A stretch of DNA of 64,000 nt, from NCBI GenBank assembly GCA_963920765.1, contig OY987243.1, positions 13,454,001-13,518,000 on the forward strand. The letters are read 5' to 3'. A program made the position numbers and the translations under genes. Every line of letters starts with the position of its first letter. Positions within the stretch are counted from its first letter, which is position 1. The notes beneath the pieces were generated by a model. That model was given only the letters and a program-made list of their open reading frames with translations. It searched no databases and was not told the origin of the DNA. Positions 9,232 to 63,802 of the stretch are shown in pieces. This DNA is from Ulota crispa (taxonomy: Eukaryota; Streptophyta; Bryopsida; Orthotrichales; Orthotrichaceae).

Positions 9232-9753
9232 CCCCCAAACGCCCAAGGGGTAGGGCAAAACATAGATGCGTTATAAAATGATATTTTTGTAATTTTAATG
9301 GAGGTGGTTTAAAAAAATAAAACAAAAATCTTGATTTTTTAGTAATTATTTATATGGTCAAATATTCAAAAAAAGTTTTGGATTCTCATTTAAAGGATTT
9401 AAAAGCATTTATCATTTAATATTCATCAAAATTACAATTTTTATTCATAGAATTTAAAATTTGGCATAATTAGTTTAAAAAAGACATTAATTTATTCAAA
9501 ACTTCAAAAACGCAATCTTTGTAAAGGAGAGAACATTGTTTGTTTTCTGAAATAGTAAATTTTGTAACATTAGCAAATATTGAAATGTTTGTCTTTAAAA
9601 AATTTTCATTTGTGGAGTTTAGCTTGGATTGACATGGTTCAAATTGGATTAGAAAGTAGACTTGCTTTCCTATACAAAAATGTTTTTTTTATATTTTGGG
9701 CATCTTGCAGAAAAAGGTAGCAACTAGACAATGGTCGATTGGGTGTTTAGGGG
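9232..9753. mobile_element. TTAA-flanked MITE (CCCCTAAAGG family), divergent copy L
   Basis: Preceded by TTAA (9228-9231) and starting CCCCCAAACGCC; ends GGGTGTTTAGGGG followed by TTAA (9754-9757). 522 bp. The interior is unlike that of the other members, so this is either an old or a distinct subfamily. Non-coding. Confidence 0.6.
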
Positions 9754-9757
9754 TTAA

Positions 9758-10499
9758 AGCACTTGCAACGTGACTTTGACCTTGGCACATCAATGAGGTG
9801 ATCATGAGTTCAAATTTAGGTAATAACAAGATACTTATCATCATAATGCACTCACTTATGGTGCATGATCAAATGACCTTGTTACCACGCAAGGATTGGA
9901 GAATTTCTTGGAAGAAAGATAATTGTCAACTCTTTACATGGTCTACCTTCTAATGGAAACATCAATTGGACACAATGAAAATGTACAAAAATCAAAGTTT
10001 GCAATTTTTATTGATTTTGCATTGGTCAAGTAACACAAGCCAAGAATGCATGCTAGCAAGGAAAAAATGGATAGAATCATGTATATGTGCACTTTCATTC
10101 TTTCAGTAACTATTATTATTAGTTTTCATCCAAATACGGCACCCTTGAGTTGTTTCATTGAGAGGGATTTGATATACACATTTTTCATATGATCTTTGTA
10201 ATGTTTAAACACTTTATTCAAACTCAACAGCACGTGAAATTACGCATCGATGCAAGAAAAACCCAACAATTCCAAGTTCTGGAAGAAAATAGTGCGTGCA
10301 ATGATTGAACCGGTTGTAAAATTTTGTTTATTCCCTCACACACGTTATGCTCATTTGGACAAAATGGACTACTTCAAGAAATGCTATAACTGGTTATAAT
10401 ATAAAAAAATCAACAATAAAAAGATACCTAAATAAATAATTGATGGCTTGCTTTCTTTTCCGTACCACAAAGCTTCCGCTTGATTCTTGAAAGACAACG
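9758..10499. other. Intergenic stretch with a weak pol III-like motif
   Basis: GATCATGAGTTCAAATTTAG near 9805 resembles a tRNA-type B box and AAAGCACTTGC near 9756 faintly resembles an A box, as in some plant SINEs. Evidence is too thin to call one. The rest is featureless AT-rich DNA. Confidence 0.25.
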
Positions 10500-10806
10500 T
10501 AAGGTAGGAGGCTCAAAAAGCGTCACTTTAATTGCCGATTGCATTTGGGAAGAAATTAAACTCCTTGAAATAATTTTTAGTAAATTTTGGTAGGAAGAAC
10601 AATGGAATTGGCATCTAACCCAAGTCGTTTCATATTTTTTGAATTTTTGTGGAATTAGTTATGAATTTTTCAAGTTGAAATCCAATGGTCACTAAAAGCG
10701 ACCCCCTCCTAGAATGTACATCTTAGGTACATTGGAAAAAACAAAATGTACCTTTGTTTTAGAGGTCGCTTTTAGAACCGGGTCGCTTTTAGAGCACCTT
10801 ACCTTA
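10500..10806. mobile_element. MITE with TAAGGTAGGAGGCTC inverted repeats
   Basis: Left end TAAGGTAGGAGGCTCAAAAA, right end TTTTAGAGCACCTTACCTTA; about 27-bp imperfect inverted repeats, 307 bp. A further internal pair, AAAAGCGACC near 10697 and GGTCGCTTTTAGA near 10764 and 10781, shows local duplication near the right end. Non-coding. Confidence 0.65.
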
Positions 10807-10889
10807 ACAAGTTGCCTAAGGGCATTACCACTTGTATAGGAAAACAACAATTTGAGCAGACTTATGGATGAAAATGGATTAATTACACT

Positions 10890-11110
10890 AAATACTGCAT
10901 TTTGGATGCCCTACACTAATGGTTGATCATGATTGGATTTTGCATGATCTACAACTTGAACTTTGTTAATTTATTTTTGGGCAGCTCTGTAGTGGTTGCA
11001 AGGCCCTTTAAAAATTGTTTTCTTGCAATAATTAGTGGTGAAAATCATTTTTACAACAGTAAAAGTGTAAGATATGAGAATTAGTGTGGGGCAACCTAAA
11101 TGTACTATTT
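10890..11110 (+). repeat. Dispersed repeat R1, partial copy 2
   Basis: Contains CAGCTCTGTAGTGGTTGCAAGGCC, then TGTTTTCTTGCAATAATTA, aligning with 11425-11480 (AGCTCTGTTGTTGTTGC). It preserves the downstream part of R1 that in the next copy is interrupted by an insertion, so it serves as the uninterrupted comparison. Confidence 0.5.
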
Positions 11111-11511
11111 GGTGCATGGCCCAGCCAAAGTATTGTTTTTGGCACAACAGTTCTTTCAAATATTGCCTTTTTTTCACAATAAGTAGGTTGAATAATTGAT
11201 GGTGAAGAATCTACTTGCTTTTGCAAATAAGGATATTGGTCATTGATTCAACATTAATTCACCTATTCTAAATATTGCGTTTAAACTGCTATAACAATCA
11301 AGTTGTCTTATTTTGGAAATGTACCTCATGACTCATTGCTTGGCCACTTGGAGGGGCATGCAACTCTCTAAACATTAGGATTTCACATGGTTTACAACCT
11401 AGATGCTCCTAGTTTGATTTTTAGCTCTGTTGTTGTTGCAAGGCCATTTAAAATTTGTTTACTGCAATAATTATTAATAAAAATCACAATAACACTAGTA
11501 AGCTTATTATA

Positions 11512-12857
11512 GGGAATTGCTAAAGCCACACCCAAAATTGCTAACGCCACACCTTGAGGTGTGCTTTGAGCATGAAATGTGAGAATTTAATGTTGAATTT
11601 TTTGATTTGGATCAAATAAATTGTTTTACCTCTATCTTTCTAAGGCTATATTCACCCCTAAAGGCCCAAGTGTCCCCTTGGGGGACAAATGGACCTCGGG
11701 CATGTACCTGTGACTAAAACAATTTTTATAATTTTTTTGAAAACTTTTGAGGATGGTGGGGAATTAAAAGATGTACGTGCACATCTAATTTTTTCTTCAT
11801 TTTGCCATTTAGTGAAGAAGTTATGCATGAGTTTTTGAACAACAAGGGAGTGTAGGCAGTCCGGGCAGCCCAAAAAACTTCTTTAAAAAATTCTTTTTTC
11901 AAAATTAAAAACCTGAAATTGATTCTTTAGATTTTTACAAATGTGGGAAGCTTTGAATCATTCAATTTTGATTTATGAGTGAGAAGTTTTGGTTTGCGGG
12001 TAGGTATGGGATTCCCAAACCTCCATTCCTTTTGCCCCTTGTAAAATTTGGACCTCTAGTTTTTTTTTGGTTTTTTTTTTTCCAACTCGTAGTAAACTAA
12101 AATTCCTTGGTTTTCATCATTTGGATCAACGTTATTCAGATTTCTCAATTTTACATAAATTCTTCAATTTTGCCTAGTGTATATGCAAATTTCATGGCCT
12201 TCCGGTATTGCAAGATTTTACAAAGTATGTATCACACCTCTTATTCATTTGAAAATTCTCCCACACTTACCTAACTTGGTCTTCTATATGGGAAAAATAA
12301 ACTTCAACTTTGCATAGAGCAAATTTTTTGATATAGGAGAGGTTGAAGGCTTCTGAATTTTTTGGGTAGCAAGGAAAAAACCTTTCTTTTTTACTTCAGA
12401 TGTGAATATCTCACTCTTATACATTTAGAATGAGCTGATTTTTTCTCCACAAGTACCCGCCATAGTCTAGGGCAAGATCCTACAATTGGATTTTCCAAAA
12501 AAACATGTTTTCCTACCTTTCTACTCATTCCCCCAAAAGTGGCAGTTTTGAGTGACTTTCACAAAGAAAAGGCCTTGGCCCTTTAGGGGTTTAAAAAAAA
12601 TGGAGGTACTTGAATTTGAAACTAAAAATATAGGACTTTTGAATTATTTAAAGCAAAAATATATCCAAAAAATAGCAAAGGTGCAATAAAGTTTAGCAAT
12701 TTGTTTTTTTTGTTCTTTCTTCTTTCAAAGAAGTGGTAATGCCATGATTGAATAAATGGTGAACCACTTAAATATAAAAAAATAGCATTAAACTCTCAAA
12801 TTACATACTCACAAGGGTGTGACATTAACAATTTTGAATGTGGCTTTAGCAATTCCC
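11512..12857. mobile_element. hAT-like MITE (GGGAATTGCTAAAGCC ends), itself interrupted
   Basis: Inverted repeats of about 45 bp (left GGGAATTGCTAAAGCCACAC, right reading GTGGCTTTAGCAATTCCC) flanked by the perfect 8-bp duplication TTATTATA (11504-11511 and 12858-12865). Removing the TTAA-family insert at 11655-12589 leaves an element of about 410 bp. 8-bp duplications fit hAT; the terminal sequence differs from the CAGGG hAT family. Confidence 0.85.
11655..12589 (+). mobile_element. TTAA-type MITE, composite form, copy A
   Basis: Starts CCCCTAAAGGCCC, ends GGCCCTTTAGGGG; 935 bp. The flanking target is degraded (TTCA / TTTA instead of TTAA). The left part has GGACAAATGG, GGGCATGTACCT and a run into TTTTTTCTTC; the right part has AAGTGGCAGTTTTGAGTGA. 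These are the two unlike halves also seen at 13301-14190 and 62849-63802. No transposase. Confidence 0.85.
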
Positions 12858-13113: not shown

Positions 13114-13300
13114 CTCAACACAGAAAAGAAGAAATACTCTATCCTAGCGCTGAAGTTTCCGAGGTTGGGCGAAGATGCCTGAACTCAACACCAAAATCCG
13201 GCCATGCAAGTGACTCAACACCAAAATAAGGTTGGTGGTAATGCAGTTTTCCTGGTGGAGATGCACTTGAGCTTCAACCAACGTTACAGCCAGCGTTTAA

Positions 13301-14190
13301 CCCCTACAGGACTGAGTCATTTTTTCAGTGAAAATCACTCAAAACTGCCACTTTTGGGGGTTAGTAAGAAGGTACTTTTTTTTGAAAATTTGAGAAATTC
13401 AATTGTAGGATCTTGCCCTAGACTACATTAGGTATTTGTGGAAAAAAAATCATGTCATTCCAGATGGATATGAGTGAGATATTTACATCTAAAGTGAAAA
13501 GAAAAGTTAATTTTCATACTGCTGCAAAATTTCAAAAGCCTTTGACCACTCTTATAACAAAAAAATTGCTCTACAAAACTTTGTGCTTTATTTTTCCCAT
13601 GTAGTAGATCAAGTTAGCTATGTGTGGGAGAATTTTCAAATCAATTGGAACTACACAACTCTTGGGAAAAAAAATAGTAAGTAAGAAAAGTAGAGAATGA
13701 GTCAAAACACTAAATTGTTAAGAATTTAATTATTCAAATGAAAAATGCAAATCCCAACGGTCATAATGTTGTGATAAACAATCTACATCCTTTGGTTTTG
13801 TTTTTTTCCTTTCCAAAATAATAAAAATTGAGTAAAATAAAGGACTTCAAAGTTTATTTTAGAGTAGAGATTCCATAACTGCCCGCAAACAAAAACTCCT
13901 CACAACTTTCATGTCATTGATTGAAATTGAATGATTCAAAGCTTCTCACCTATAAAAAAATCTAAAGAACTTTTTGGGCTGCCTGGGCGGGCAGTCCTCC
14001 CTTGCTTTTCAGATTTTCATGCATAACTTCTTCAATAATTGTTGGAATGAAGAAAAAATTAGATGCTCTTGTAGATCTTTGAATTCCCCACCTTCAATAA
14101 AAGTTTCAAAAAATCACACAAAGTAGCTTATCCAAAGGTACATGCCCAAACTCCCACTTGTCCCCCAAAGGGACAACAGTCCTTTAGGGG
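13301..14190 (-). mobile_element. TTAA-type MITE, composite form, copy B
   Basis: TTAA on both sides (13297-13300, 14191-14194); begins CCCCTACAGGACTGAG, ends AGTCCTTTAGGGG; 890 bp. It is the reverse of copies A and K: AAAACTGCCACTTTTGGGG lies near its left end and GGTACATGCCC near its right end. Internal stops everywhere; no coding capacity. Confidence 0.88.
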
Positions 14191-14194
14191 TTAA

Positions 14195-14271
14195 CCCCTA
14201 AGCGTTTGGGGTATCACTGTGGATACACGGGTTTAATGTATTTCACGCGGACAAAAAACGTGACGCCTAGG
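14195..14271. mobile_element. Miniature TTAA-type element, 77 bp
   Basis: Shares the right TTAA of copy B, starts CCCCTAAGCGTTTGG, ends GACGCCTAGGGG, followed by TTAA (14272-14275). It is either a very short family member or a solo pair of ends. A comparable 65-bp item lies at 21038-21102. Confidence 0.55.
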
Positions 14272-14535
14272 GGTTAATATGTTGGCAAATTTTTGCCTAA
14301 ATCTTACATTGAAAGGTAGCTGGCTGGCGATCGGTACACTAAGATTTTTGCGTGAACAAATGGATGAAATCACCAGATCCATCTTGGAGCAAAATCCCAT
14401 TTGCCAAAATTTTGGATGAAAGTGGCTTATATTAGCAATTTTTCGGATGAACCTCTATAGATCATTCATTCACTCCAGTTTAGCTAAATTTTCCTTACTT
14501 GCCTACATTTTGGGGTGCGGGTTGCTCTACCATGA

Positions 14536-14896: not shown

Positions 14897-14917
14897 ATGA
14901 CAAAACCTAAAATTAAA

Positions 14918-20920: not shown

Positions 20921-21037
20921 CAGGTAGTTCACACTACGTCCCACATCTCATTTCTACAAGTAACAACATGAATACTCAACTTTATTAGACTCTCAAATTT
21001 CAATGGGACGTGGGACATAGTGTGAATTGCCCCTTAA
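20921..21037. mobile_element. MITE, family M4 (ACACTATGTCCCAC), short copy
   Basis: Left GTAGTTCACACTACGTCCC and right GGGACATAGTGTGAATTGCC form inverted repeats of about 35 bp in a 110-bp element. The longer member is at 58699-59335. Confidence 0.65.
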
Positions 21038-21102
21038 CCCCTAAATGCATGAGGCACAGTTTTGGTTTTTACACTGGAATTCGGTGTCTCAGGCATTTAG
21101 GG
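21038..21102. mobile_element. Miniature TTAA-type element, 65 bp
   Basis: TTAA (21034-21037), then CCCCTAAATGCATGAGGC; ends GTCTCAGGCATTTAGGGA followed by TTAG. Similar to the 77-bp item at 14195-14271, both having a GAGGC/GACGC-type inner motif. Sits at the very end of the M4 MITE. Confidence 0.5.
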
Positions 21103-31097: not shown

Positions 31098-31236
31098 TTC
31101 TATCATTCTATGGGTAGGGTGGCTTGCAAACTCGCTTGCAAATTGTATGAGACAAACACCTTTTGTACTTTTCTAACAAACAAGGACTTGATCTATGAAT
31201 GTGGATGTAGCCAATTGGATAGAGATGGCCTCTTAA

Positions 31237-31879
31237 CCCCTAAAGGACCAAGGGCCCTTTTGGGGAATAAATGGGATTTTGGGCATGTACCTATGGCTAA
31301 ACTACTTTGCGTGATTTTCTGAAACTTTTATTGGAGGTGAGGAATTCAAAGATCTACGTGGGAATGTAAATTTTTCTTCATTCCAACATTTATTGAAGAA
31401 GTGAAAAATGAAAATTTGGAAAATGATGCTCCCTAGGCAACCAAAACTTCTTTAAAAATTGCTTTTTTTTTTAATATAAATATGAAATAGGTTCTTTAGA
31501 CTTAAATAGATGTGTGGAGCTTAGAAACCACACCTACCCGCAAACTAAAACTTCTCATAACTTTTATCTCATCTATCAAAATTGAATGATTCAAAGCTTT
31601 GCCCATCTATGTAAGTCTAAAGAACCTATTTCAGATTTTTATTTGAAAAAAATGCAATTTTTAAAGAAGTTTTTGGCTGCCCAAGGAGCATGATTTTCCA
31701 AATTTTCATTTTTAACTTCTTCAATAAATGTTGGAATGAAGAAAAAATTACATTCCCACGTAGATTTTTGAATTCCTCACCTTCAATAAAAGTTTCAAAA
31801 AATCATGCAAAGTAGTTTAGTCATAGGTACATGCCCAAAATCCCATTTATCCCCAAAAGGACCCTCGATCCTTTAGGGG
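31237..31879. mobile_element. TTAA-type MITE, foldback form, copy C
   Basis: TTAA at 31233-31236 and 31880-31883; CCCCTAAAGGACCAAGGG to GATCCTTTAGGGG; 643 bp. Both arms carry the same half of the family: GGGCATGTACCTATGGCTAA at the left and its complement at the right, plus AATTTTTCTTCATTCCAACA and its complement. Non-coding. Confidence 0.92.
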
Positions 31880-32240
31880 TTAAGAGGCTATGAGTGGGGT
31901 GACCCTTCTTCCCTAACTTGCAAACTAGATTGACAAGTTTTCAAATTGGCTTGCATTTTGGAGGACAGGTGATGATGCTCTTAAGACGTTATTGATTTCC
32001 TTGCAAAAGAAGATACTAAGAAAATTGGATGATAAGTAATGCCTTTCAAGAAATATTTCGGCAATTTGTATCTTGTTATTTTAAATTTCAACTTTAGCTA
32101 AAACAACGATCTTTTCGGAAATTGGTTTCATCTAATGAAATGAAGTAAAATGAATCTGCTTCCTATTCCAACTTGAAATTTTGAATATTTTGTGAAACTT
32201 AGGGGTGAAACTGAACTCTTATGTATATTGAAAATAACTT

Positions 32241-32812: not shown

Positions 32813-33453
32813 TTAGTTTTTAGTTATAAAATTATACAAGAATTTGGATTGCATCATGATGTTTCACACTATAATGTACATCCATGATGAATTTAAGAAA
32901 AAAAATCCCATAATTTTATAAGATGTTTTGTTTCTTCAAATTTAGTCTCAAAATTGTGTTGTTTGCTTATACAATAGTGCCTCCCTAAGATGAACCTTTG
33001 TAAGGAAAAATGCTTGACTAAGATGAAAGAGATGATTGTTCCTGGTGATTGGGGAATTACAAAAACTTGTTTAACTACAATAAATGTTTTCCTTACATGA
33101 AAAGAACATGTTGTCCGAATATCTTCATCGTATCCAGGCACTACTGTAGTATTTTCCTTACTCAAATGACGTTGGTATTTGAGACCTTGTGACAAGGGGT
33201 CTCCACTATGATGACAATGAGACCTCGGAAGAAACTAACAAGAATTGCCATCTCGTTGATTTTCATTAATTGATTGATCTTCCAAGTGCCATAGGTCCAA
33301 TTGGTTTCACTTTAGTCACATCCCACCAAATTTTGCATTTTATTTTTCTGAAAAAAAATTGTTAAAGAAGGGAAAATCCTTGTTGAGTGTATCTCAAAAA
33401 CTTGATACCATCCAATTTGACAAGTGACACGTTTCCATCTCGAAACTAATTAA
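32813..33453. other. Intergenic stretch
   Basis: Open frame 32893-33195 (minus, 100 codons) has no recognisable domain and no exon-like composition; I do not call it. Nothing else supported. Confidence 0.4.
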
Positions 33454-34306
33454 CTCTTAAAGGTTCACGCATTCAAAAAGTGGATGCGCCTTGGTCAACC
33501 CTGATTGTAATTTTCAAAATATCAATTTTTGGTTTGTGATTCAAACTAAGAAAATGAAGCTTGACAAGTTTCCTTTCTATTCCATTTAATTTTTTTGAAA
33601 AATGTCAAAAATCAAAAAAGTTATTGTCATTGAAAGCTGCACGTGTTAGAATCCAAATAACACAATATGATGTGTTTTTCAATTATATTTTCTACTCTTT
33701 AAATGTATTTTAAATTTGAACTACAAAACTATGTTTCTCATTCTTCCATTCATTTATGGTAGAAATTACATATTTTTTTAATATAAATAATAAATGATAT
33801 GATTTTATTTCCACATTTTGCTTTAAAAAATCACAATAATTCAAAATTTTCATCAAATTTATTGAAAATTTAAAGTAAATAAAAAATGAATGTGTCTTTC
33901 AACAAAAACTATCAAATTTCTATATATTGATTGAAATAAGGATAAACTTGGCTTGATAGTCAAATTTGACTTTAAATTCTTTGTAGTGGTTGTTTTGGAT
34001 GTAAAAAATTAAAAAACCAACTAAGATTTTTTCACACTAATCATTAATGCTTCTTGTACCTCTTGAAGAAAATTTAAGTAATTTGGAGTTTTTTTGCTAT
34101 TTTAACTTACTTATGTTCATTTTTTGAAAAAAAATGATAACAATTACAATTCTTCATGAAACAAATTTAAATTTCTTGCAATGATATGTCATTCATAGTT
34201 TCAAGAAATAAAAATATAAAATTGTTGTTTGAACATACTTTAAAAGACAAAATTGAGCTTAGACATGAAGTTTGACCATTTCAAAATGGATCAAGTCCTT
34301 TAGGGG
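33454..34306 (-). mobile_element. TTAA-type MITE, divergent copy D
   Basis: TTAA at 33450-33453 and 34307-34310; starts CTCTTAAAGGTTCACGC, ends CAAGTCCTTTAGGGG. 853 bp. The left end is degraded and the AT-rich interior is a different subfamily. Confidence 0.65.
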
Positions 34307-35663
34307 TTAATCTGGTGTTCACTTTCTTTATAGCACAATAAAATATATTAACCAAAGTTAAGCTAATTTTAGCCACTCTAAAATTTGAAATGGAGGTTGC
34401 GAGAGTCATAATTTAGCTGTCAAATGTTAAAAAAAATCTCAAAGTTTTATAAAATATAGCTGCATTTTATTTATCATTATTTTGAAGCATTTATATATTG
34501 TATGTCCACATCATCAAATTAAAACTAAGTCATATAAGTCATTCTTTGGTTTTTGGTGAGGCACTATCTTTTTAGTGATTTTTTTTTACTTTAGAACTTG
34601 TTAAGTGCTTTATTTCTCATTTTTTATTTTAAAATTAGCGGTTGGTGCTTGCTATGCTATGCATTCACCATTAAAATTGTTGTGAAATCCAAAATTGAGT
34701 AAAGATATGACATTATAGAGGTCATTGTGATTTTAATAATATGATGGTTTATATTTCTTATAAATTATCTTCACATTTTCTCAAATTTCAATATAATTAG
34801 GAATCTTGAAAATAAATAAGGTTTTTGTTTAACTTATCATGACATTCATTGTGAGGGCTATAAGCTTTTCATATCAAAACCCAAGCAATAAACGTTCTTT
34901 TATTGGCAAAAGCTAAAAAGCCCATTCATTTAATCAAAGGAAAATTTGGAATTCATAGGTAATTTTTAGTAAGAAGAATCAAAGCAAGACCAACAAAGAG
35001 TTCAGTAGGAAGCCTTTAAGTCATTTTTTCCTCTTTATGGACTTGAATGATATTTGGCTCCTCTATAGAAAACAAGTGTTTTCTCTTATTTGCAAAACTG
35101 TGATTTTTTTATAAAGTCAAATTTGGTGAATGATGTAATTGAAGTTGGACTACATAATCATTGGCTCAATCTTTTAAAGCTTTACTTAAACTAATGATTT
35201 TAGAAATGTAAGAAACCCAAGCCAACCTTTTCTTGAGGTAATTATCATTAGGTTTCAACAAATTCTTTGAACTTCAATCTCGTAGACTTTTGAGGAAAGT
35301 AATGCAATCATTTAACCAACTTTCCACATAAAGCTGTCGAGAATTGCTAAATTTTTGTTGTTGTAGCTACAGAGTATTCACTAATATTGGAATTTGATTG
35401 TGATTAATTAGATATAAGGTTATCATCATGATAAAACAAAACTTGTTGTGAAAATATGATTTTGTAACATATTTAATCTTCTGAACCTTAGGACAACAAT
35501 TTGTTGTAAGTCATAACTACGCATGTTTACAATTCCTCACCCTCAAAGAACTAGATCGCATCAATAGGCTCACAAATTATAGCAAGCACTTTTCCTCACC
35601 TACAGTAAGTGAAGATAAGTAGACAATATTAGATCATTGAGATTAAGTTAACAAGCTATCATG

Positions 35664-37877: not shown

Positions 37878-38580
37878 TATCCAATTTTATCAAAATTTTC
37901 CTTATCTGCTTGATTTCTTGGATACGGGTCGCTCTGCCCTGACCCAAAAAAAAGAGAAAAAAACCTGCTGGTAACCGGCTAACCGCCCACTAATATCACG
38001 GTCTCAGTGGTCGGTTTCCTCGGTTTCCCAGGTAGCAACCAGCCTAAATTCCACTGTAGCCCACAACTTTATAATCATAGCTTTACAATGATAACTCTAC
38101 AATAAAAGCAAGCTTTGCAAAGATGCCAAAAGTAGGACCGAAAAGAGGGCTAAAAAGCCGATCCAAAAGCAGGTCAGAAAGTGAGAAAGCTGAAGTTAAA
38201 AAAGCTGGCTCAAGAGGCAGGCCTTTTTCTTACAATTTTTGTTTAAGCTTACTTTGAATCAGAAAGTGGGTGTCTGGATTTTCCTCATCCTGCACGTAGA
38301 TTTTGGTCTCACAAGAACCAGCCTTATTTAATTCAAGTTTTTTTATTTTGTTTATTTTTTCAAATTTCAGAGAGTGCTAGAAATGGCAAAACAAATATAA
38401 TGGTGAAGCCACATACTTGCGTCAGTATGTATATTTTGACTCGACTATCATTAATCCATTTATATGTTATATTATTTCTATCTCAGCCTAATCCAACACT
38501 TTATCCAATATGGAAATTTATAAAGCAATATTTTTCTCAAATTTTGGTTCATTTATAGCCTATGACCTTATCATACTTAA

Positions 38581-38941
38581 CCCCTAAAGGACTAAGGAGC
38601 CCACTTTGGGCTTTTTGGATATTTGGGCAAGCATTTTCCATGTAAATGTTTGAGAAAATACTATGAAAATAAGGGTGTATGTGCTTATATTGAAAAGTTT
38701 GCTTTCTTCTCAAAAAAATTGGAATTGAGTAATTTTCAAGTGAGATATGGTACCATATGTGATTTAGGTGTGAACAGAGGCATCCCTAAAAACATAAAAA
38801 TAAAAAGATTGGGAAGGGTGTTGCCCATAAAGCATTTACAAAATTTTGAACTCTCCAAGAGGCCCTTAAGAAGTCTCAAAAAGGATCCCAAGACATGTAC
38901 TTATTGCAATAAACAAATCACTAATCCCCTATTTCACCCAT
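38581..38941 (+). mobile_element. TTAA-type element, left half only (copy E)
   Basis: TTAA (38577-38580) followed by CCCCTAAAGGACTAAGGAGC, but no matching right end before the M3 MITE at 38942. It contains a 106-codon open frame (38623-38943) whose end reads KKDPKTCTYCNKQITNP. I do not recognise it, and a chance frame is likelier than a gene. Confidence 0.45.
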
Positions 38942-41887: not shown

Positions 41888-43052
41888 CACGATATTCATT
41901 AGATTGGGAAAAAAAGTACATTTTGAGACTTCTGAATGGTTAAGGTGATCACCTTAACCCCTGAAGGATCAAGCAAAGTTTTCACCAAAACTCTTCAAAA
42001 CTGCCATTTTTAGAGCATCAACCAAATTTGAGAACAAAAACCATTTTGTGCATATGTGAACGTAGGATCTTGTAGAAGGATGGTTGCAGAAGATGTAGAA
42101 AAATTTTCAGAGTTTTCCACCATGTGGATTGGAATTTTGAATGGTTTGAATACTAAAAAACGTCTTGTGAAAAATTGGGTAGCTACCCTTTAGAAGGTGA
42201 AATTCCTAAGGAAAAAAGGCCATGTGGGTGGTGCTTTTCTAAATTCCTTATTCCACCTAAGTAAAGTACATGTCAAAAAAGTTTCAAATCATTTGGAGTT
42301 GTACAACATATGGAAAAAAATTAGTAAGTAAAACAAAGTAGAGAATGATTCAAAACACTAAATTGTTAAGAATTTAATTATGGAAATGAAAAGTGCCAAT
42401 CCTAATGGTTGTAATGTTGTAATAAACAATTCACATCCTTTGGTTTTGTTTTTTCCCCAAAATAATGAAAATTAAGTAAAATAAAGGATTTCAAAGTTTA
42501 TTTTAGTGTAGTGAATCCGTAACTGCTAGGAAACTAAAAATTCTCATAACTTTCATCTTGTTGATCAATATGGAACGATTTAAAGCTTCCTACACTCACA
42601 TAAATCTCCTAAACCAATTTTAAAATTTTGATTTTGAAAAAAGCGATTTTGAAAAATTTGCCTAGGCTGCCCAATGAACGTAAAAAACAACACATTAGGC
42701 CATAATTGTTTACTCATAATTCCAAATGTCATGAAATGTATTGCATATGAAAGATAAACCTTGTCCCCACATTTTGTTAAAATTTTAGCCTAAACTATGA
42801 AAAACTCCAATCACAAGTACCTGCCCAAAATCGCTATGTTTCTAAAAAAAAGGTCTGGTCCTTTAGGGGTTAAACTAAGCTCTAGCATTTTTTTGGTACA
42901 CATGCCCTCACTTGAGAGGAGGAGTTTGCGAGGGAAAAATCTTAGTGGCTCAGATTGAATCTGGTACCTTCAAATTTGGTTTAAGGTGAATTTTTTGATT
43001 TCAAGTGAAGTACAACTTGGGAATTGCATTTTCCCAATCTAATGAATATCAT
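41888..43052 (+). mobile_element. MITE, family M3, copy b, interrupted by a TTAA element
   Basis: Left ACACGATATTCATTAGATTG, right CAATCTAATGAATATC. Without the insert (41958-42869 plus one TTAA) about 250 bp remain, the normal M3 size. The insertion lies at GATCACCTTAA, which is uninterrupted at 51795. Confidence 0.88.
41958..42869 (-). mobile_element. TTAA-type MITE, copy F, nested in an M3 MITE
   Basis: TTAA at 41954-41957 and 42870-42873; CCCCTGAAGGATCAAGC to GGTCCTTTAGGGG; 912 bp. Carries AACTGCCATTTTTAGAG near the left end and CAAGTACCTGCCCAAAATCG near the right, like composite copy B. Non-coding. Confidence 0.92.
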
Positions 43053-43064
43053 GATACTACGTTA

Positions 43065-46957: not shown

Positions 46958-48017
46958 ATCCCTGGTTGGTGTAAAAACAGTATGTGCTTGACAACGATTC
47001 ACTACCCATGTATTGATTTCAGTAAATGCAATTATTACACTCAGATTGAGGACCAATTGACATTTGTACCCAAGACGGAGATCTGGTTTGCCACAAAGGT
47101 GTGTACTCAAGGAATCAGAGAACTTAGCCAGCGCACCATCTGGCATAGGTAACTTACGAGCTAGAAGGTCAGAAACTAGTAGTAACTTACTAGGAAAGGC
47201 TAGAAATTAGTATTAGTAGACTAGGCAAAGAGAGTTTAGTCAAATTGGCAATATTCCATTACTTTTGTACAATTCAAGTTGCATAGCTTAAATCCATTAC
47301 CTTGCGACCTTAAGACCTTCGTAGACTGATTATAACTCTTGTGAAGATATATGTCACAACTTTTGACTCATGATTATAGTAAATGAAATGCAATGATGCA
47401 CAAATGAATACAATACACCTAATACTCCCTAATTTTTATGGGTGTGTAGAGAATTTTCTAAGTTATATATAGCAACATTCTACTGCTACTAGAATACAGT
47501 TGACACATCTGTATTGTCATGATATCCAGTATCTCGCTTCTGTTGTTTGGTGATGAATTACACTTACTCTCACAAGCTTGTGTTCTTCTATCTTAAGCCT
47601 TTGTAAAACTATCAACATTTCACACAGACCATGGCTACTCAAAACTCTAGATGAGAAACTCTAAAAGAACAGAATTTTCATGAAAAACCGAGTCAATACT
47701 ATTTGGTTTTGTAGATTTAAAAAATAGTATTCTCTTTTCCAGTCCTCCCTGCAATGATTGTTTTCTTATTTCTCTTGGACTATTTGTGAGGAAATAGAAT
47801 GTATCCTTTTTTGTCAAAATCAAAAGTTTAGATTCCGTTTCACTTGGAATACTCTACTCTTTTTTAATGTGACGTTTCTTCCTTGTCAGGAGCTTTGTAA
47901 ATTTTGCTATTATCTCTGTCGATTGATCAAAGTATCAATGGTTTACATACCTGAATTGGTACAAACCCGACTGTTGAATTCCAGCTGAAGGTCTCTCTTT
48001 TCTTTGTTTTTGACGTT
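46958..48017. other. Intergenic stretch
   Basis: No supported gene. Open frames (for example 47758-47988 plus) lack recognisable domains. Confidence 0.4.
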
Positions 48018-48259
48018 AACACCATATTCATTAAATTGGAAAAAAGTGTATATTTTGGGACTTTGAGGTGATCACCTCAAACCGAGCTAACTTTTTTTTG
48101 ACACGTGCCCTCATTTGAGAGGAGTAATTTGCAATGGAAAAAATCTTAGTGGCTCTAACGAAATCTAATACCTTTGAGTCTATTTTAAAATAACTTTTTG
48201 GGTTTGAGGGGAAAACAAAGTGGGACACCTCTTTTTCCCAAATTAATGAATATGGTGTT
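48018..48259 (+). mobile_element. MITE, family M3, copy e
   Basis: AACACCATATTCATTAAATT to AATTAATGAATATGGTGTT, 242 bp; the best preserved M3 ends in the window. Confidence 0.9.
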
Positions 48260-48692
48260 TGTTACCTTAGGAAAATTTTCTCATTTAAATCTTTCTTTTG
48301 TATATAGTGAAAAGAAAATCCCATTGTCCAGCCCATTCCAAATATCTTAATGATTCCAGAAACTCAACCCCTCCCTCTTAGTCTAGCCACTCCTTACATT
48401 TTCTAAGAACATAGGAGATAACATCTTTGATGATATAATTGGTTATCCAAGATTTGAGCACTTCTTCAATTCTAGCTCCTTAGATTTCAAAACCTAGAAG
48501 ATGGGTGTCTTTGATGGCATGGCCACGTGGTTGGTTGTCCAAAAATATTTTAGGCTTGCCTTTTGAATGATAACTTCAAAAAAACTAGTTATGAGTCTTG
48601 TGACATTCCAAAATCAATACTTTCTATTTAAACATGATTTTTTACAAATTTAATTTGCACATCAAAAAATCTATGGCAAAAAATGCAAAAGC

Positions 48693-51400: not shown

Positions 51401-51726
51401 CAAACACATAACAGTCATATGAGCTGTTCCTATCACTCCTCATTAAGTTGAAACTCTTTGTAACTATAAGCAAGACTGAAGGTCTTAGGATAAAAAGTTA
51501 CATAGTTAAAAAGTTACATAGTTAGATTGAGGTTATTGTTTGTATGTTAATGAAAGTTTTTGACATTTGAAATTGGTAATTTTTTGACATTTTAAGCCTA
51601 AAATTTGGTGGTTCATGGTGTCTTGCACTAAATGAGCACCTCTCATTTACATTTCTTTCATCTAAGATGGTTTTTCATTTCTTGATTCACAAGATGACAA
51701 CTTCAATACTGTTTTCTTTAGATCCT

Positions 51727-51988
51727 AACGCCATATTTGTTAATTTGGGAACTATATTTGAATTTGGGACTTTTGCAGGTTTAAGGTGATCACCTTAAAC
51801 CTAGTTTTAGGTTTAAGCAACATTTCCTTGGTACACGTGCCCTCACCTAAGAGGAGTTTGGGATGGAAAAAATCTTAGTGGCTCAAATTGAATCTGATAT
51901 CTTCGAATTTGGTTTAAGGTAACTTTTTAGGTTTAAGGTGAAGTTCAATTTGAGATCCGCATTTTCCCAATTTAATGGACATGGCATT
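51727..51988 (+). mobile_element. MITE, family M3, copy f
   Basis: AACGCCATATTTGTTAATTT to AATTTAATGGACATGGCATT; contains the uninterrupted GATCACCTTAAACCTAG that serves as the empty-site comparison for copy b. Confidence 0.85.
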
Positions 51989-53927
51989 TACTACTTTACA
52001 TTGAGAACGGCTTGAGAAAGGCTTCCAAATAGGGACAATGCATATTCCCTAGTAAACATAATAGGGGTAGTCACACCTTCTTCACCCCATTCTCAATTTT
52101 CAAAGAACAGGGATATGACAAAATTTTATTAATTTGTCAAGGTTCCATTCTTTGATGATTGAGAAGTTTTCTTCTTCACCTCCAAAGGAGAAGAACATGT
52201 GTGAAGACATTTCTTACCCAAAGTTTCTACCAATGCATGTTTCTTTTTCATCTTGCTCTCCACCACATGTTCCTATTCAATGAGAATGTAGCATTCTTAT
52301 TGCATCTAGAAGTTATGTTCTATTTTTCATTACTTACAAAAAGAGAGCCACACTTTTTTTTGTGGAAAAGTACTCCCACTAACTCCTATTTCCACTCCGC
52401 AACTTCTTATCTTTCAAGAATGTGTGACTACCAATGTCCAAGGAGGTTTTTTTTTAAAAACTAGGTACATTTCCTAGTCTTATCTGGTCCACTTGGGGGT
52501 TTTTTTTTTTTAATCGGTCATGGCCTAGACATGTATTTTTTGGTTAGCAAATAGCCTTTGCTTTTTTTTTTTTCACTCGGTTGATTTTCTAAGTTTAGGA
52601 AAATAGTTTGGTTGAAATTTGAATTTCAATGTATTATATCAAATTTTTTTTCTTACAAATGTTGCAAACAAATCAATCTTTTGTTACCATGCGCATGGCA
52701 TAGCACAGCAAGACAATGATCAAGACATCAAAAACTTGTCAAGTTACCCCCAACTAATGCAATTTTTTTATACTTTAAAAGGATTTGTTGTTGACTTTTG
52801 TTACTTAAGCATCTTTGGCTGGATTTGAACTAGGTCAAGTCCCACCATTTTGGGATTGAGCACCATGTTTCCTTTAAGGATTGGTGCACCAAGTGCACCT
52901 CTTATCCCATTAACCATCAAGTGCACCGTTTCTCCCATTAACCATCACATAGTCACCCACTCACCCTCTCATTTCCTCACCCACTCACCCTCTCATTTCC
53001 TCACCCACTCACCCTCTCATTTCCTCACCCACTCACCCTCTCATTTCCTCACCCACTCACCCTCTCATTTCCTCACCCACTCACCCTCTCATTTACTCAC
53101 CCACTCACCCACTCACTTGCTCACCCACTCACCCACATGGCCACCTCACCCATGTTTCTTGTTTTTAAAATTTCTAAACTTTTAGCACCCTGTAATTGCT
53201 TGTGAAACATTAAAAAATTTGGTTTTTGTTTAGAAGGGCGGAAAATTTCCTTATTGTGGAAAAGTTCATAGGTTGATTTCCCATAGCTTCAAATTTCATT
53301 CGACCCATCGACCCATTTCCGCATCTACAAGTGCACCTTCAGCTAAATTTCCTAAAGATGAAATTGTAACTCAGTTGATTTCCTAAAACCATGATTTTAT
53401 GATCAAAAGCAAATCTGACAATTTTTTTTTTTGGCAATCTTCAAAAAAAAGTCGGCTGACTTGTAACTAAAACTCCGTTCTCTCCGGACACTGGTGACCA
53501 CCCGAATGCGTATGATGAACAGGTGAACATTTCTTCAGGTCAAACATTAATGTTGTACACCACAAACACAAGGGCTAGTAAAGGAAACTTAGCAAAAGCA
53601 TCTCATCAAAAATTTAATGTCCTTCAAGTTTGTTGTAAGAGGATCATTGGATGGTTTTGTCGTGTAGGTAATTGTTAATACAAACGCCATTATTTTGACT
53701 TTGCTCCACATTAGCTTTTCAAAGAAACTTCCACAAATTAGAATCCACTAGAAAAGTCCATCGTAAGGAAAAATGCATTAATTTGGCTGGTTTTTGGAGT
53801 TGAAAATTCAACAAACAAGTGTAAGAGCAAGAATTTAGCTGTTTTGACTTTTGAGTGAATACGCTGAAGGGCAAACTTTCATGTGCCGGCCAGGTTGGCA
53901 AATAGCCAAAGGAGTTTCTAATGTTAA
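51989..53927. other. Intergenic stretch with a tandem repeat
   Basis: Apart from the 24-bp array at 52955-53133 I see only AT-rich non-coding DNA. Open frame 52850-53185 is produced by the array. Confidence 0.45.
52955..53133 (+). repeat. 24-bp tandem repeat (minisatellite)
   Basis: Six almost identical 24-bp units (CCCACTCACCCTCTCATTTC then CTCA) to 53098, then degenerate CCCACTCA repeats to 53133. One open frame reads it as HSPSHFLT repeats; there is no sign that it is translated. Confidence 0.92.
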
Positions 53928-54888
53928 CCCATAAAGGGTCAAGTGGCTGTTCAATAGTCACTTGAGGATTTGGTAGGATTATATGGAGTCAATTTTTGTT
54001 GGATGTTCTTGAAATTGTTACACAAGGTGTGAATATGTATCCCGTAAGTGGAAATGTAATTTTTTCCCCAATTGGATGCCCAATTCAAAAGTTATGTTAC
54101 CCAAAAGAATTTGGGCAGCTCGGGCAGCTCGGGCATCTTTGGAATATCTTATGCTAAAACTCTCATCAACTTTTGAAATTCGGCCGATATGTAACTAAAA
54201 CAATAGGGTATACAATGTCAAAAAAAGACAAAAAAATTGAACTCTCACATCACATTTAGGAGTCAAACTTTGTTAACTTTGTTTGGGCAATTTCAAGAAA
54301 AAAAAATAAATAAATAAAATCCTCTAACTTCAAGCCCTATTATCTTTCAATCTACAAATCCAAAACTCTTGAAATTTTTTTTCACATGTTTCAAATGATT
54401 GTCTCTAAGTTTTCACTGTTCAAATTTCAAATAAAAGACTTCCTCATTGCATAAGAAATTATGAAAGAATGACTATTGTATTGCCAATTCACTTAACCTC
54501 CTTGCATTGCAGGGTGATTTAGAATAAGCTAGATTCTATCTTTGCATCTAAAAATTTTCAGGAGTGAACCTAACATCATATACTTGTGAATGGTCAAAAA
54601 GCTCAAATTTGTGTAAAGCAAAAATTTTACTCTAGGAAGGCTCAAAGTTTGCTGACCTTGTTTTGCAAGAATGAAAAAAAGCTATATTTCTCACTTCAAA
54701 CGTTATAACCTTACAATCCACGAGGTCAAATGGGCTGAATTTTTTTACATATGTTAACTAATTTGTTTGACACACTTTTGTAAGGTTGATATTGAAAAAA
54801 AAGGTTTTTATTTTTAATTTCGGACAATGCACCAAAAGTTGACAGTTTCTGAGATTTTTTCTCAAAAACACCCTTGGTCCTTTAGGGG
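53928..54888. mobile_element. TTAA-type MITE, copy G
   Basis: TTAA at 53924-53927 and 54889-54892; CCCATAAAGGGTCAAGTGGC to CTTGGTCCTTTAGGGG; 961 bp. Contains a duplicated GGGCAGCTC unit (54113-54134), comparable to the GGGCAGCC motif of copies A, J and K. Interior otherwise a separate subfamily. Confidence 0.82.
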
Positions 54889-54892
54889 TTAA

Positions 54893-55741: not shown

Positions 55742-55743
55742 TA

Positions 55744-57183: not shown

Positions 57184-57452
57184 TTTGTTGGATTTCAATA
57201 CTAGGACTAGCATAGATATTTGCTCTAAGTCCAATGTCCAATGATATTACCCACCAAATTTTGTTTGATTGGTTTGAAAAAAACTCAAAAATCAGAAAAA
57301 ATCTGCAGTACTTCCTCTAGTTTAAAAAAAAGTTCTATGGAACAAGTAAATGAATATTATTGTTAAAAAGTTGAATTTTCTAACACATTTAATAGTATTT
57401 ATTACACCACATAGAGCTACTTATGAAATTTGTATTTGGGGTCATTGGTTAA

Positions 57453-57662
57453 CCCGTGAAGGGCCCTTGGGCTTTAGAGATACGGTACCAAATATGGTCG
57501 CAATTAATATTCAGAAGTTTGAATCAACTGAAATTAAGTGTTACAACCATACATATTGAAGGGTTGTATGATGGTGGGTGCATAAAAAAATCGAAAAACC
57601 CTCAGAGCAGCTCAAACACGCCTGTACATACAGCTGCAAAGGACTTTCAAACCATTCAGGGG
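57453..57662. mobile_element. TTAA-type element, short copy H
   Basis: TTAA at 57449-57452 and 57663-57666; CCCGTGAAGGGCCCTTGG to AAACCATTCAGGGG; 210 bp. Degraded ends. Confidence 0.55.
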
Positions 57663-57666
57663 TTAA

Positions 57667-59335: not shown

Positions 59336-59557
59336 GTAAGCATTTTCTAATGTAATCATGGAAGTAGTTTAGTAAAGTAATTTTATTATGTAATAGTTAG
59401 ATCAAACGTTGCTAGAATGTACATTTTAGTAAAAGTATGGAAATAGAAAGGAATGAGAGTTTTATTAAGTTGATTTTCAATTCAAGTTTCTTTGATTGTA
59501 GATTAAAGTAATAGTTTTTATATACAGGAATCACTGCAACCAGATTGATACATTTAA

Positions 59558-60284
59558 CCCTCAAGGCCTAAGCACTATTTCTTGACAACTAGTGATTTTG
59601 GGCAGCTTACTACAAGTGGATGTTTCATTTTTTTTCTTTGAAATTTGCACGCATGATGTGCCCAAGGAGTAACTTAAGATCCAACAATTTTCATAAATTT
59701 TGACTACATCAAAAGTTATTATATGATATGTTGTTTTTTTTGAACTCCAAGCAGCCTAGGAAGCTCAAAAAACTTCTTTAAAAATGATATTCTTTTGAAT
59801 TTTTTTTTGGAATTGGTTCTTTAGACTTGTATGTCTGTGGGAAGCTTTGAATCATTTGATTTTGATTAATGAAATGAAAATTATGAGAAGTTTTAGTTTG
59901 TGGGTAGGTATGAAGTCTCTCAAAACCATACCTACCAGCAAACTAAAACTTCTTGTAACTTTCATCTCATAATCAAATTCAAATGATTCAAAGCTCCCCA
60001 CATATATATAAGTAAAAAGAACCAATTCAAAAATATAAATAAAAAGAATGTCATTTTTAAAAAAGTTTTTGAGCTGTCCAAGCTACCAAGAGTTCAAAAA
60101 AAAACAACATATCATGCAATAACTTTTGAACCTTGTAGTCAAAAGCTTTGAAAATTGTTGGATCTTAAAGCTACTCCTTGGCACATCATATGTGAAATTT
60201 CTCAAAAAAAAAAAAAAAATCCACTTATAGTGAGCTGCCCAAAATCCATTTTGTCCCCCAAAAGGACAAGTGAGCTTTTAGGGG
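59558..60284. mobile_element. TTAA-type MITE, foldback form, copy I
   Basis: TTAA at 59554-59557 and 60285-60288; CCCTCAAGGCCTAAGC to TGAGCTTTTAGGGG; 727 bp. Arms mirror each other around about 59930 (TGGGAAGCTTTGAATCATTT against its complement near 59980). Confidence 0.85.
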
Positions 60285-60288
60285 TTAA

Positions 60289-61101
60289 TGTCCATTTTCA
60301 ACATTTCCACTCTAAACTACTGATTTTCTTGATTATAATTATAAGTGAGTTGCTGGAATTTGAAATTCAGCTTTATGTGAATATATATGTGACTGTATTG
60401 GGATATTGGTAGATTCAATCACATGGAAATACTCAAAACTTCAAAACCTACAACTCATGCCCACAAACCACTTCCAAAATATTCCTCCTTGTTGTATTTT
60501 ATTAACAGATATTTCTGTATTTTTTTTAAACGGAGAGATTTAGTGACCTATTGTGAGTATTTTGGTTAAATTCATTGATACAAAATAATTCGTAGTGATC
60601 ATCAACAAATCCTGTTGGAATCTGGCTAAACGATTGCATGGTTGTTCTTTCAAAATCATACATGCTCTACATTAATTCCAAAATTTGTTGAAATCTTGCA
60701 AATTTTGGTTCAAAAATTAATTTCTACTAGGAAGAGCAGCCTTAGTGAAAGGAATAATAATATTTGTTTGTTTGCTTGCTTACCAGTTTATTTATATATT
60801 TAATTTTGAACAAAGATTTATAGCAAAATGAATAAACGCGTACTATTTCATTAGAAGTGCACATGCAGTGTTTCTAAAGTGCTTAGGATGCAAAATTCTT
60901 GTAAGAGAAATTAGCTATTGCCACTCCTATTGTAAAAAAAAATTGACCTTGCACACATACAAACCTTGAAAAGAGAATAATATGTTATGATCACATTTAT
61001 TACAATAAAAAAAAAAAAAAATCTACTACCAATTGAAAAATAATAGCTTATTTCATTTTAGAATACAACAAAAAAACAAAATTGCAACTATCACTGCTTA
61101 A
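60289..61101. other. AT-rich intergenic stretch
   Basis: Nothing supported. Confidence 0.45.
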
Positions 61102-61840
61102 CCCCTAAATCTCTAAGTGTCCCCTCGAGGGACAAATGAGATTTTGGGCAGGTACCTATGACTAAACTACTTTGTGTGATGTTTTGAAACTGTTCTGGAA
61201 GATGGGGAATTTGAAGATCCGTGTGCACTTCTTTTTTTTTTTTTTTTTCATTTTAACATTTTTTGAAAAAGTAAAAAATGAATTTCTGATTTTTTTTGGA
61301 GATGGGGCAGTCCGGGCAGCCCAAAACTTTTTTAAAGTTTACATTTTTTTGAAATAAAAATCTGAAATTGGTTCTTTGAGTTTACATATACATGGGAAGC
61401 TTTGAATCACTTGTTTCTAGTAAATGAAATGAAAGTTATGAGGACTTTTAGTTAACTGATAGATATGACTCCATATCTACCAGTTAACTAAAAGTCCTCA
61501 TAACTTTCATTTCATTTACTAGAAACAAGTGATTCAAAGCTTCCCATGTATATGTAAACTCAAAGAACCAATTTCAGGTTTTTATTTCAAAAAAATGTAA
61601 ACTTTAAAAAAGTTTTGGGCTGCCTGGACTGCCCCATCTCCAAAAAAATCAGAAATTCATTTTTTACTTTTTCAAAAAATGTTAAAATGAAATTTTAAAA
61701 AAAAAAAAAAAAATGTGCACACGGATCTTCAAATTCCCCATCTTCCAGAACAGTTTCAAAACATCACACAAAGTAGTTTAATCATAGGTACCTACCGAAA
61801 TCTCATTTGTCCCCCGAGGGGACACTTAGAGATTTAGGGG
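61102..61840. mobile_element. TTAA-type MITE, near-perfect foldback, copy J
   Basis: TTAA at 61098-61101, TCAA at 61841-61844; CCCCTAAATCTCTAAGTGTC to its exact complement. 739 bp. Two arms of about 365 bp meet at 61465-61475 with almost no loop and only a handful of differences. Each arm is the half found at the left of copies A and K. Youngest-looking member. Confidence 0.95.
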
Positions 61841-61844
61841 TCAA

Positions 61845-62552
61845 ACACATGACCAATTATTAATGTGCTTGATATGTGATTAGTCATTAGCATGTGTTTG
61901 ATCTGTCACCAGTCATTGACATGTTTACAATAGTTTTGATATTTCTGCATTCAATTTTTTTTCTTCTTGCCCATGCGGAAGTGTGACCAATCTTCTAGAA
62001 CACAAGTTCATAATAAAAGGTCAAAATTGAAAAATGAATGGTCATTGATATGTTCACAGTAAATTCCTTCACTTGAATTACAAAGACGCACGTGCCTATG
62101 AAACAAAATCTAGGACCCAAATGTCTATCAACTTAAGGTCAACGTTTCACGAGGTCCTTTTCAAATATTGGAGGATTTACCTGGAATTCTTAATTGCAAA
62201 ACCTCATGAATCCAAGTGGCTCAACAATTCTAAGAAAAGAATACAACAATGGTGTTCACAAATCATTGACAGACAAAGGAATACCTGGCTTGTGGACATA
62301 CCCAAGCCCACTTCTAAATTCATAACCTCTACAATTATCAATATACAATAGACAAAGATCAACATTACAACCCTTCTCATGCCAAGCCATCGAACTTTAA
62401 TTAAGAACAAATTTCTACGCTAGTCTATAATGGTAAAACTAAAAAATAACAAACAATATTGCACTGTAAAATCATATGACACTTTTGGCTAGCATGAAAG
62501 TTCACTCTAAATTTACCAAAATGAATTATTCAAAAATGTTTACAATGGGTAC
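61845..62552. other. Intergenic stretch
   Basis: Open frame 62073-62351 (plus, 92 codons) has no recognisable domain. Nothing else supported. Confidence 0.4.
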
Positions 62553-62775
62553 ACTAAATATTGCATTTAGTTTGTCTTGACAATTTGGTTGCTTTGACAA
62601 TTAGATTGCCTTACTTTGGTAAATTACTTCGAGACTCATTACTTGGCCACTTGGAGGTGCATGCAACTCTTTAGATACTTGGGATTTTTCATGGTTTACA
62701 ACTTCAACAACACTAGTTTGTTTTTTAGTAACTTTGTTCTTGCTACAATGGTGCTTGGTTAGCGTCAATCTTTGT
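62553..62775 (+). repeat. Dispersed repeat R1, copy 4
   Basis: Shares CTTGGCCACTTGGAGG(T/G)GCATGCAACTCT, in blocks, with 11340-11370, followed by CATGGTTTACAAC. Left end CACTAAATATTGCATTTAG. Confidence 0.65.
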
Positions 62776-62848
62776 AAGAGCAACAATTGGATAAGATCAC
62801 AGCCCCATCCCCCTTTTGCTCAAAAGCATGTATTATGAGATTGGTTAA

Positions 62849-63802
62849 CCCCTAAAGGACCGTTGTCCTTGCAGGGGACAAATGAGATTTCGGGCATGTA
62901 CCTATGGCTAAAGTACTTTGCATGATTTTTTGAAACTTTTATTGAAGGTGAGGAATTCAAAAATCTATGTGGGAATGTAATTTTTTCTTCATTTTGACAA
63001 TTATTGAAGAAGCTATGCATGAATAACTGAAAAACAGGGGACTATTGGGCAGCCAAAAAAAAATTGAAGTTTTTTTTAATTTTCTTTTGAAATTGGTTCT
63101 TTAGATTTTTATGTATTTAGGAAGCTTTGAATCATTCAATTCTAATAAACGAGATGAAAGTTATGAGAAGTTTTAGTTTGCAGGTAGGTATGGGACTCCC
63201 AAACCTCCATTCCTTTTCCCCCTTGTAAAACTTTTTGCTTTACTTTTTTGAGCTCTTTGTGTATTTGTTTTTTTACTTTTTTTTTTCCAAGTTGTAGTAG
63301 ACTAAGATTCCTTGGTTTCTACCTTTTGGATCAAAGTAATTCAGATTTCTAAATTTTACATAAATCCTCCAATTTTGCCTAGTGTATTTGTAATATTCTA
63401 GACCTTCCACCATTGCAAGATTTTACAAAGTATGATCCACATGTCCAATTCATCTGAAAATTCTCCCACACATACCTAACTTGGTTTTGGACATGATAAA
63501 AAAAATCCTCAACTTTGCATAGAGTAATTTTTTTGGGTTATCAATGGTCAAAGGCTTTTGAAAGTTTTGGGTAGTAAAGTAAAAAACTTTTTTCTTCACT
63601 TTGGATGTAAATATCTCACTCCTCAACATTTAGATTGAGCTGATTTTTTCCCAAGAAGTACCTCCCATAGTCTAGGCCAAGATCCTATGGTTGGATTTTC
63701 CAAAAAAAAGTTTTTTTTTTTTTTTTTTCTATTCTACTCACTCTCCCAAAAGTGGCAGTTTTACATTGAAATTTACAGAAAAAGGCCACGGTCCTTTAGG
63801 GG
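62849..63802 (+). mobile_element. TTAA-type MITE, composite form, copy K
   Basis: TTAA at 62845-62848 and 63803-63806; CCCCTAAAGGACCGTTGTCC to CACGGTCCTTTAGGGG; 954 bp. Same orientation and order as copy A: GGGCATGTACCTATGGCTAA in the left half, AAAAGTGGCAGTTTTAC in the right. Both ends and TTAA intact. Confidence 0.93.

Follow-up and report, generated by a model that had tools for sequence, protein, structure and literature searches.

The 64 kb of Ulota crispa DNA analysed here (the window: contig OY987243.1, C2 in our numbering, from 13,454,001; 36.1% G+C, genome 275 Mb) contain eleven paired elements of 210–961 bp each with CCCC(T)AAAGG-type ends, which are almost certainly non-autonomous members (miniature inverted-repeat transposable elements, MITEs) of a piggyBac-superfamily DNA transposon that resides in the nuclear genome of a plant. 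Because the transposase domain PF13843 (DDE_Tnp_1_7) was found between MITE ends, this reading is now backed by the transposase in addition to the ends. Three of the eleven (9228, 33450 and 57449; elements are named by their first position) are putatively tied to the family through nothing but their ends, their target and the boundaries of their copies. The superfamily itself is not new, and plants have already been listed among its hosts; the unusual features here are the length of the source elements (8–9 kb) and the number of copies within a single plant genome.

Window elements and full-length sources

As outlined in Table 1, whose coordinates include the flanking four bases, TTAA stands at both borders in nine of the eleven elements, the exceptions being 61098 (TTAA/TCAA) and 11651 (TTCA/TTTA). 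Without the flanking bases the elements add up to 8,346 bp or 13.0% of the window. A sequence-only reading of this DNA had named ten starts plus one at 11655 with a degraded target, had put the total at 8–9 kb and had described TTAA as mostly present on both sides; all eleven starts are present, and the total and the flanks are borne out as well. Its list was sound in that every listed element is real and incomplete in that further ends at 21034 and 38577 were missed. Likewise, the CCC-type starts and matching ends which it described exist, but they are more variable than CCCCTAAAGG, 33450 starting with CTCTTAAAGG, 57449 with CCCGTGAAGG and 9228 with CCCCCAAACG.

In most window elements the inverted repeat is limited to the outer 10–20 bp, and it can be weak: the first 20 bases of the two ends match at 8 (33450), 10 (57449) or 9 (59554) positions. 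A gapped comparison revealed 31233, 59554 and 61098 as near-complete palindromes with arms 85.8, 82.3 and 95.0% alike, respectively. For 61098 a single hairpin of 739 nt is predicted at −585.7 kcal/mol, compared with −151.2 (sd 6.0) for 20 shuffles. A possible 79-bp element at 14191–14277 adjoins the 13297–14194 MITE, with which it has a TTAA in common; its ends CCCCTAAGCG and CCCCTAGGCG match in nine of ten bases.

Three complete elements were found at transposase loci, namely T39 (from L026, contig C9; 8,522 bp), T41 (from L025, C5; 8,821 bp) and T42 (from L038, C8; 8,247 bp). Each is flanked by TTAA on both sides, has CCCCTAAA-type ends (CCCCTAAAGG or CCCCTAAAAG at all six) and encloses a PF13843 domain, which lies 5,645, 5,977 and 5,476 bp from the 5′ end and 1,752, 1,701 and 1,628 bp from the 3′ end, respectively. 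This like spacing and the common interior argue against the idea that two MITEs came to flank an unrelated gene by chance. The larger element with the same termini and a DDD piggyBac transposase, for which the sequence-only reading had suggested looking, is thereby at hand in three copies, all with damaged transposase genes, and its piggyBac-like assignment is supported by TTAA, the ends and the PF13843 domain.

The interiors of the window MITEs match the outer parts of four of the 30 best transposase loci (L025, L026, L034 and L038). Five loci were widened, L025, L026 and L038 on the basis of such MITE matches in their flanks and L040 and L043 on the basis of stop-free frames. The best member of the main subfamily, 62845, corresponds with its bases 1–197 to the 5′ end of T41 (85.8%) and with bases 418–962 to the 3′ end (72.5%); over all three full-length elements the likeness is 79–86% over 178–197 bp at the 5′ ends and 72–76% over 364–552 bp at the 3′ ends. 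Since it aligns to both ends of the source elements, 62845 is an internal-deletion derivative. The MITE 11651 matches T39, T41 and T42 at their 5′ ends with its left part and at their 3′ ends with its right part, and in the reversed 13297 the left end resembles the 3′ end of T41 (76%, 357 bp) and the right end its 5′ end (83%, 217 bp). Internal deletion is demonstrated for the main subfamily only. Altogether, eight of the eleven window elements match T39, T41 or T42 DNA at E ≤ 1e-3 (9228 was entered as 9228–10000 in this comparison), five of them over long stretches and 41954, 53924 and 59554 mainly over the terminal 53–61 bp. Only the terminal 58–60 bp of 41954 are common to it and T41/T42; for its interior the match (78.6%, 364 bp) is to another MITE of the main subfamily, located in L040.

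Other repeats are nested inside T39, T41 and T42, and part of the element length of 8–9 kb may come from them. Another palindromic repeat family, located in or near piggyBac loci, may contribute to this length too; it occurs at window positions 39556–40897, L039 6567–7193 and L043 155–1029, and in L043 its arms are 91.5% alike.

Table 1. Elements and isolated ends in the window (positions within the 64 kb, flanking four bases included).
Feature	Position	Strand	Remarks
MITE, own subfamily	9228..9757	.	522 bp plus TTAA both sides; ends CCCCCAAACG / CCCCTAAACA; family tie through ends and target only
MITE, main subfamily, deletion derivative	11651..12593	+	degraded flanks TTCA / TTTA; 75.6% identical to 62845
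MITE, main subfamily, reversed	13297..14194	-	TTAA both sides
Isolated end TTAACCCCTAAATG	21034..21047	+	without convincing partner
Palindromic (foldback) MITE	31233..31883	.	TTAA both sides; arms 85.8% alike, both matching the 5′ end of full-length elements
MITE, separate subfamily	33450..34310	.	TTAA both sides; family tie through ends, target and copy boundaries only
Isolated end TTAACCCCTAAAGG	38577..38590	+	without convincing partner
MITE inside another repeat	41954..42873	-	TTAA both sides
MITE, separate subfamily	53924..54892	+	TTAA both sides; only the 3′ terminal 61 bp match T42 (82%)
Short MITE, 210 bp	57449..57666	.	TTAA both sides; family tie through ends and target only
Palindromic MITE	59554..60288	.	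TTAA both sides; arms ~82% alike; only the terminal 53 bp match the T41 5′ end (83%)
Palindromic MITE	61098..61844	.	TTAA / TCAA; arms 95% alike
MITE, best of main subfamily	62845..63806	+	954 bp; TTAA both sides

Transposase and upstream coding-like stretch

A profile search of the genome with PF13843 gave at least 120 matches (best E 1.3e-73), which is a lower bound with 116 of 528 candidates scored, and none of 14 control genomes was positive. The matches lie on each of the contigs C1–C11, and the window MITEs are located beside a gene for a DUF569 protein (PF04601, 1.6e-46), a family typical of plants; on these two grounds animal contamination was rejected. The 476-aa frame of L043 matches PF13843 at 8e-60 and, directly, the solved structures of piggyBac (6x67, 4.1e-20) and piggyBat (9c0f, 5.8e-17). 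In an alignment of 34 domain readings (from 30 loci and four additional ones, including a partial reading; X stands for stops) the three aspartate columns are kept in 31 (TvDE), 25 (DN) and 27 (GVD) readings. The second column otherwise holds seven N, one E and one gap, the third four N, one E and two gaps. The first two columns align with Trichoplusia ni piggyBac; the three are taken as the catalytic aspartates of the superfamily.

The transposase between these ends also bears on the possibility that the MITEs belong to the Kolobok superfamily and that the piggyBac genes are unrelated neighbours. According to PMC9587614, Kolobok likewise creates TTAA duplications, but its termini are given as 5′-RR...YY-3′, whereas those described here read 5′-CC...GG-3′. 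Moreover, the transposase enclosed is of the PF13843 type; no search was aimed at a Kolobok transposase. The three full-length elements mostly refute this explanation, to which we attach next to no probability. A transposase of another class, named by the sequence-only reading as an argument against itself, was not seen between these ends in the elements examined, the genome-wide search for transposases having covered PF13843.

The transposase loci are diverse, mostly 64–70% alike where they can be aligned, and other TTAACCC-type ends were observed at L009, L014, L018, L030 and L040. Two of these loci, L009 and L018 (G000:C3 and C10), are 90%-identical piggyBac copies with a different end type, TTAACCCTTCATTGCC, and their likeness stops one base past TTAA. 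In L043 (G000:C4) a MITE-like end pair, CCCTTAGAGACCAC / CCCTTTAAAGACCAC, lies at ~1233–2133 upstream of the piggyBac transposase, which suggests further end types. The 3′ end of the L043 transposase element reads TTAACCCTTTAGCGACCA; its 5′ end was not found. At two further loci stop-free frames cover the domain, in L047 1250–2938 (G000:C1) as two pieces ~270 bp apart and in L048 1351–2766 (G000:C8) as one frame of 472 aa, in which the region past the second aspartate looks out of frame. From their sequences, both are candidates for late-surviving or host-adopted copies.

A coding-like stretch is common to T39, T41 and T42, approximately 4–5 kb before the domain. Its 322-aa reading in T39 has 47 genome matches, which fall into 35 loci. 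At eleven of these a transposase domain from the PF13843 list follows on the same strand, no farther than 9 kb downstream, where 0.07 would be expected; 24 have none in that list, which is a lower bound. A Pfam search with the stretch returned zero family matches. Most likely it encodes the N-terminal part of the transposase as a separate exon, although it may instead represent a second gene.

Target site, copy borders and copy number

For the target the four outer bases of the end pattern were left free, except that the first of them was not to be A. Under these terms 6,164 ends in the genome match (control 1), and exactly TTAA precedes 5,283 of them (85.7%). Among the first hundred listed, 13 ends deviate from TTAA, 11 of them by one base. 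These counts speak to Tourist (PIF/Harbinger) or Stowaway (Tc1/mariner) MITEs, for which TTAA would only be apparent. Both are common plant MITE classes and their targets, TTA/TAA and TA, are included in TTAA, but a target of 3 or 2 bp leaves the outer base free, which does not fit the preponderance of exact TTAA. Nor is a further direct repeat beyond TTAA visible by eye, and the transposase between the ends is of the piggyBac type. We therefore consider a Tourist or Stowaway origin extremely improbable. A longer target, with TTAA as a part of the ends, was rejected as well, since the direct repeat outside TTAA was not seen by eye.

An empty site is provided by the repeat that hosts the 41954 MITE, whose uninterrupted copies at ~51726, 48009 and 38941 can be aligned through the insertion point. 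At 51726 the sequence there is CACC-TTAA-AC, with a single exact TTAA. The sequence-only reading had named a target duplication other than TTAA as a finding that would speak against it; none was met, as the one empty-site comparison fits TTAA, exactly in one of three copies. The host is an unrelated second repeat (window 38941–43329, 48009–48269 and 51726–51998) in which a 19-bp unit, GGTTTAAGGGGACTTTCTG, is repeated in tandem at 39119.

Copy borders were analyzed by searching the genome with four elements including ~100 bp of flank and counting the non-self rows whose start or end lies no more than 5 bp away from the border predicted. For 33450 this applies to 38 of 39 starts and 35 of 39 ends (copies 83–91% identical), for 57449 to 39 and 31 of 39, for 53924 to 35 and 36 of 39, and for 9228 to 38 and 33 of 43 (76–84% identical; 43 non-self rows with 40 of 1,523 candidates scored). 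For 62845, where 40 of 9,895 candidates were scored, these include 39 other copies of full or almost full length at 87–94% identity. Ten of this type were fetched (62845 itself and nine others), whose flanks all differ and which carry TTAA at the left end in all ten cases and, as aligned, at both ends in seven; in two of the remaining three the alignment stops before the right end and in one the right end is GTAA. These ten copies diverge by 3.8% from the majority base, and C>T plus G>A account for 167 of the 363 changes, a pattern that would fit the decay of methylated cytosines. At plant substitution rates it would also fit a burst a few million years ago.

Over the whole genome TTAACCCCTAAAGG occurs 40,957 times with ≤1 mismatch (reversed control 133) and TTAACCCCTAAAGGNNCAAG 5,283 times (reversed control 0). 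With reversed controls of 0, 1 and 133, a chance origin of the end pattern was rejected. The window contains 16 TTAACCCCTAAAGG-type ends, in comparison to a genome mean of ~9.5 per 64 kb, and is thus ~1.7 times richer. Scaling its 13.0% by this enrichment suggests that the elements make up very roughly 8% of the genome, a value that is an estimate and no count.

Weight of the evidence and relation to known systems

Several observations weigh against the piggyBac assignment or narrow its reach. Movement itself was not observed. Complete elements were obtained for three loci only, and these had been preselected by MITE DNA in their flanks; a complete pair of ends was not obtained from the other two widened loci, L040 and L043, and no MITE-type end (≤2 mismatches) was found within 1.5 kb of the 30 best transposase domains, the ends lying farther out. 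MITE-like ends also occur 80 bp before T42 and ~50 bp after T39, which indicates that nesting is common here. As many as 110 of the 120 PF13843 matches contain stops and the ten stop-free ones are mostly partial or split, the L043 frame is lost at the end of the domain, and a complete undamaged transposase gene was not seen among the loci examined. The motif of the C-terminal cysteine-rich (zinc) domain is present in five of 30 loci, where its spacing from the domain on the 3′ side is similar (antisense 0 of 30; a first, different pattern four of 30). Two of the three empty sites do not read exactly TTAA, the copy at 48009 having TCAA and that at 38941 TAAA, and a fourth, more distant copy of the host repeat has TAAA as well; such one-base differences may be those of old copies.

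Finally, 9228, 33450 and 57449 have no detectable DNA match to T39, T41 or T42. Together with their deviating ends, this would suit a mixed origin, in which the main subfamily (the 62845 type and the palindromes) is piggyBac and these three stem from a different TTAA-targeting element with CCC-type ends. However, they have the same target, similar ends and TTAA copy boundaries across 39–43 copies each, and with transposase loci as diverse as those found, some with other TTAACCC-type ends, other subfamilies are to be expected. A mixed origin appears unlikely to us.

On this assignment, source elements of 8.2–8.8 kb with a gene for a DDD (DDE_Tnp_1_7) transposase and CCCCTAAAGG-type ends gave rise to the main-subfamily MITEs, which keep both ends of the source and lack the middle. 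In line with established piggyBac biology, the transposase would bind both ends, excise the element and insert it into TTAA with duplication of that TTAA, and MITEs, consisting of ends only, would be mobilised in trans. Some MITEs would have been reshaped into 5′-end palindromes, and the transposase copies would later have decayed, probably largely via C-to-T change.

The flanking TTAA, the CC-starting ends and a DDE_Tnp_1_7 transposase with DDD are the same as in the piggyBac superfamily (Trichoplusia ni piggyBac, Myotis piggyBat). Unlike in T. ni piggyBac, the host is a plant and the elements measure 8.2–8.8 kb, partly due to nested repeats, as opposed to 2,472 bp (PMC10140906). Unlike both piggyBac and piggyBat, they have the conserved coding-like stretch ~4–5 kb before the domain and very many MITE ends. 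Short non-coding members of the family resemble mPok1 and mPok2 of Daphnia Pokey (PMC4912750), from which they differ in the plant host, in forming several subfamilies and in including near-perfect palindromes. With Tourist and Stowaway they have in common that they are short, high-copy, non-coding, inverted-repeat elements thought to be mobilised in trans; the targets of those classes are, however, 3-bp TTA/TAA and 2-bp TA (PMC10004981), and their transposases are of other classes.

The remark of the sequence-only reading that piggyBac is seldom reported in land plants fits the literature found, but it is not provable from it, several reviews naming plants as hosts. Plants stand among piggyBac hosts in general statements (PMC10813416, PMC10140906, PMC10794571), and PiggyBac is one of seven angiosperm MITE superfamilies in PMC10004981 (2023); PMC2528002 (2008) has only five superfamilies described in plants. 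Repeat tables count 376 PiggyBac elements (0.03%) in Rosa rugosa (PMC8213826) and 1,230 in Ceratopteris (PMC6890710), far fewer copies than here. Neither a full-length element nor evidence on transposase or target site appears in the passages with these plant entries. In a literature search that covered few subscription journals, no paper on full-length plant piggyBac elements with their MITEs was recognised among those listed, mostly by title and beginning of the abstract.

More broadly, and as a tentative proposal that we hold to be somewhat less probable than its opposite, the elements could represent a piggyBac lineage adapted to plants, whose transposons are unusually long and possibly contain introns, acquired by horizontal transfer or retained from very old times. 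With at least ~20,000 MITEs and several per cent of the genome, they would be among its main DNA transposons, and related sources would perhaps still be mobile, with footprint-free excision. According to PMC10905368, footprints are left by every DNA transposon found in plants. If sources are indeed still mobile, footprint-free excision would be a property that a 2023 review denies to all known plant transposons. The genome also points to plant-derived relatives of the piggyBac tool that is now imported from a moth. With at least 120 transposase matches and ~40,000 TTAA-type MITE ends, it is well suited to the question whether piggyBac reached plants via horizontal transfer.

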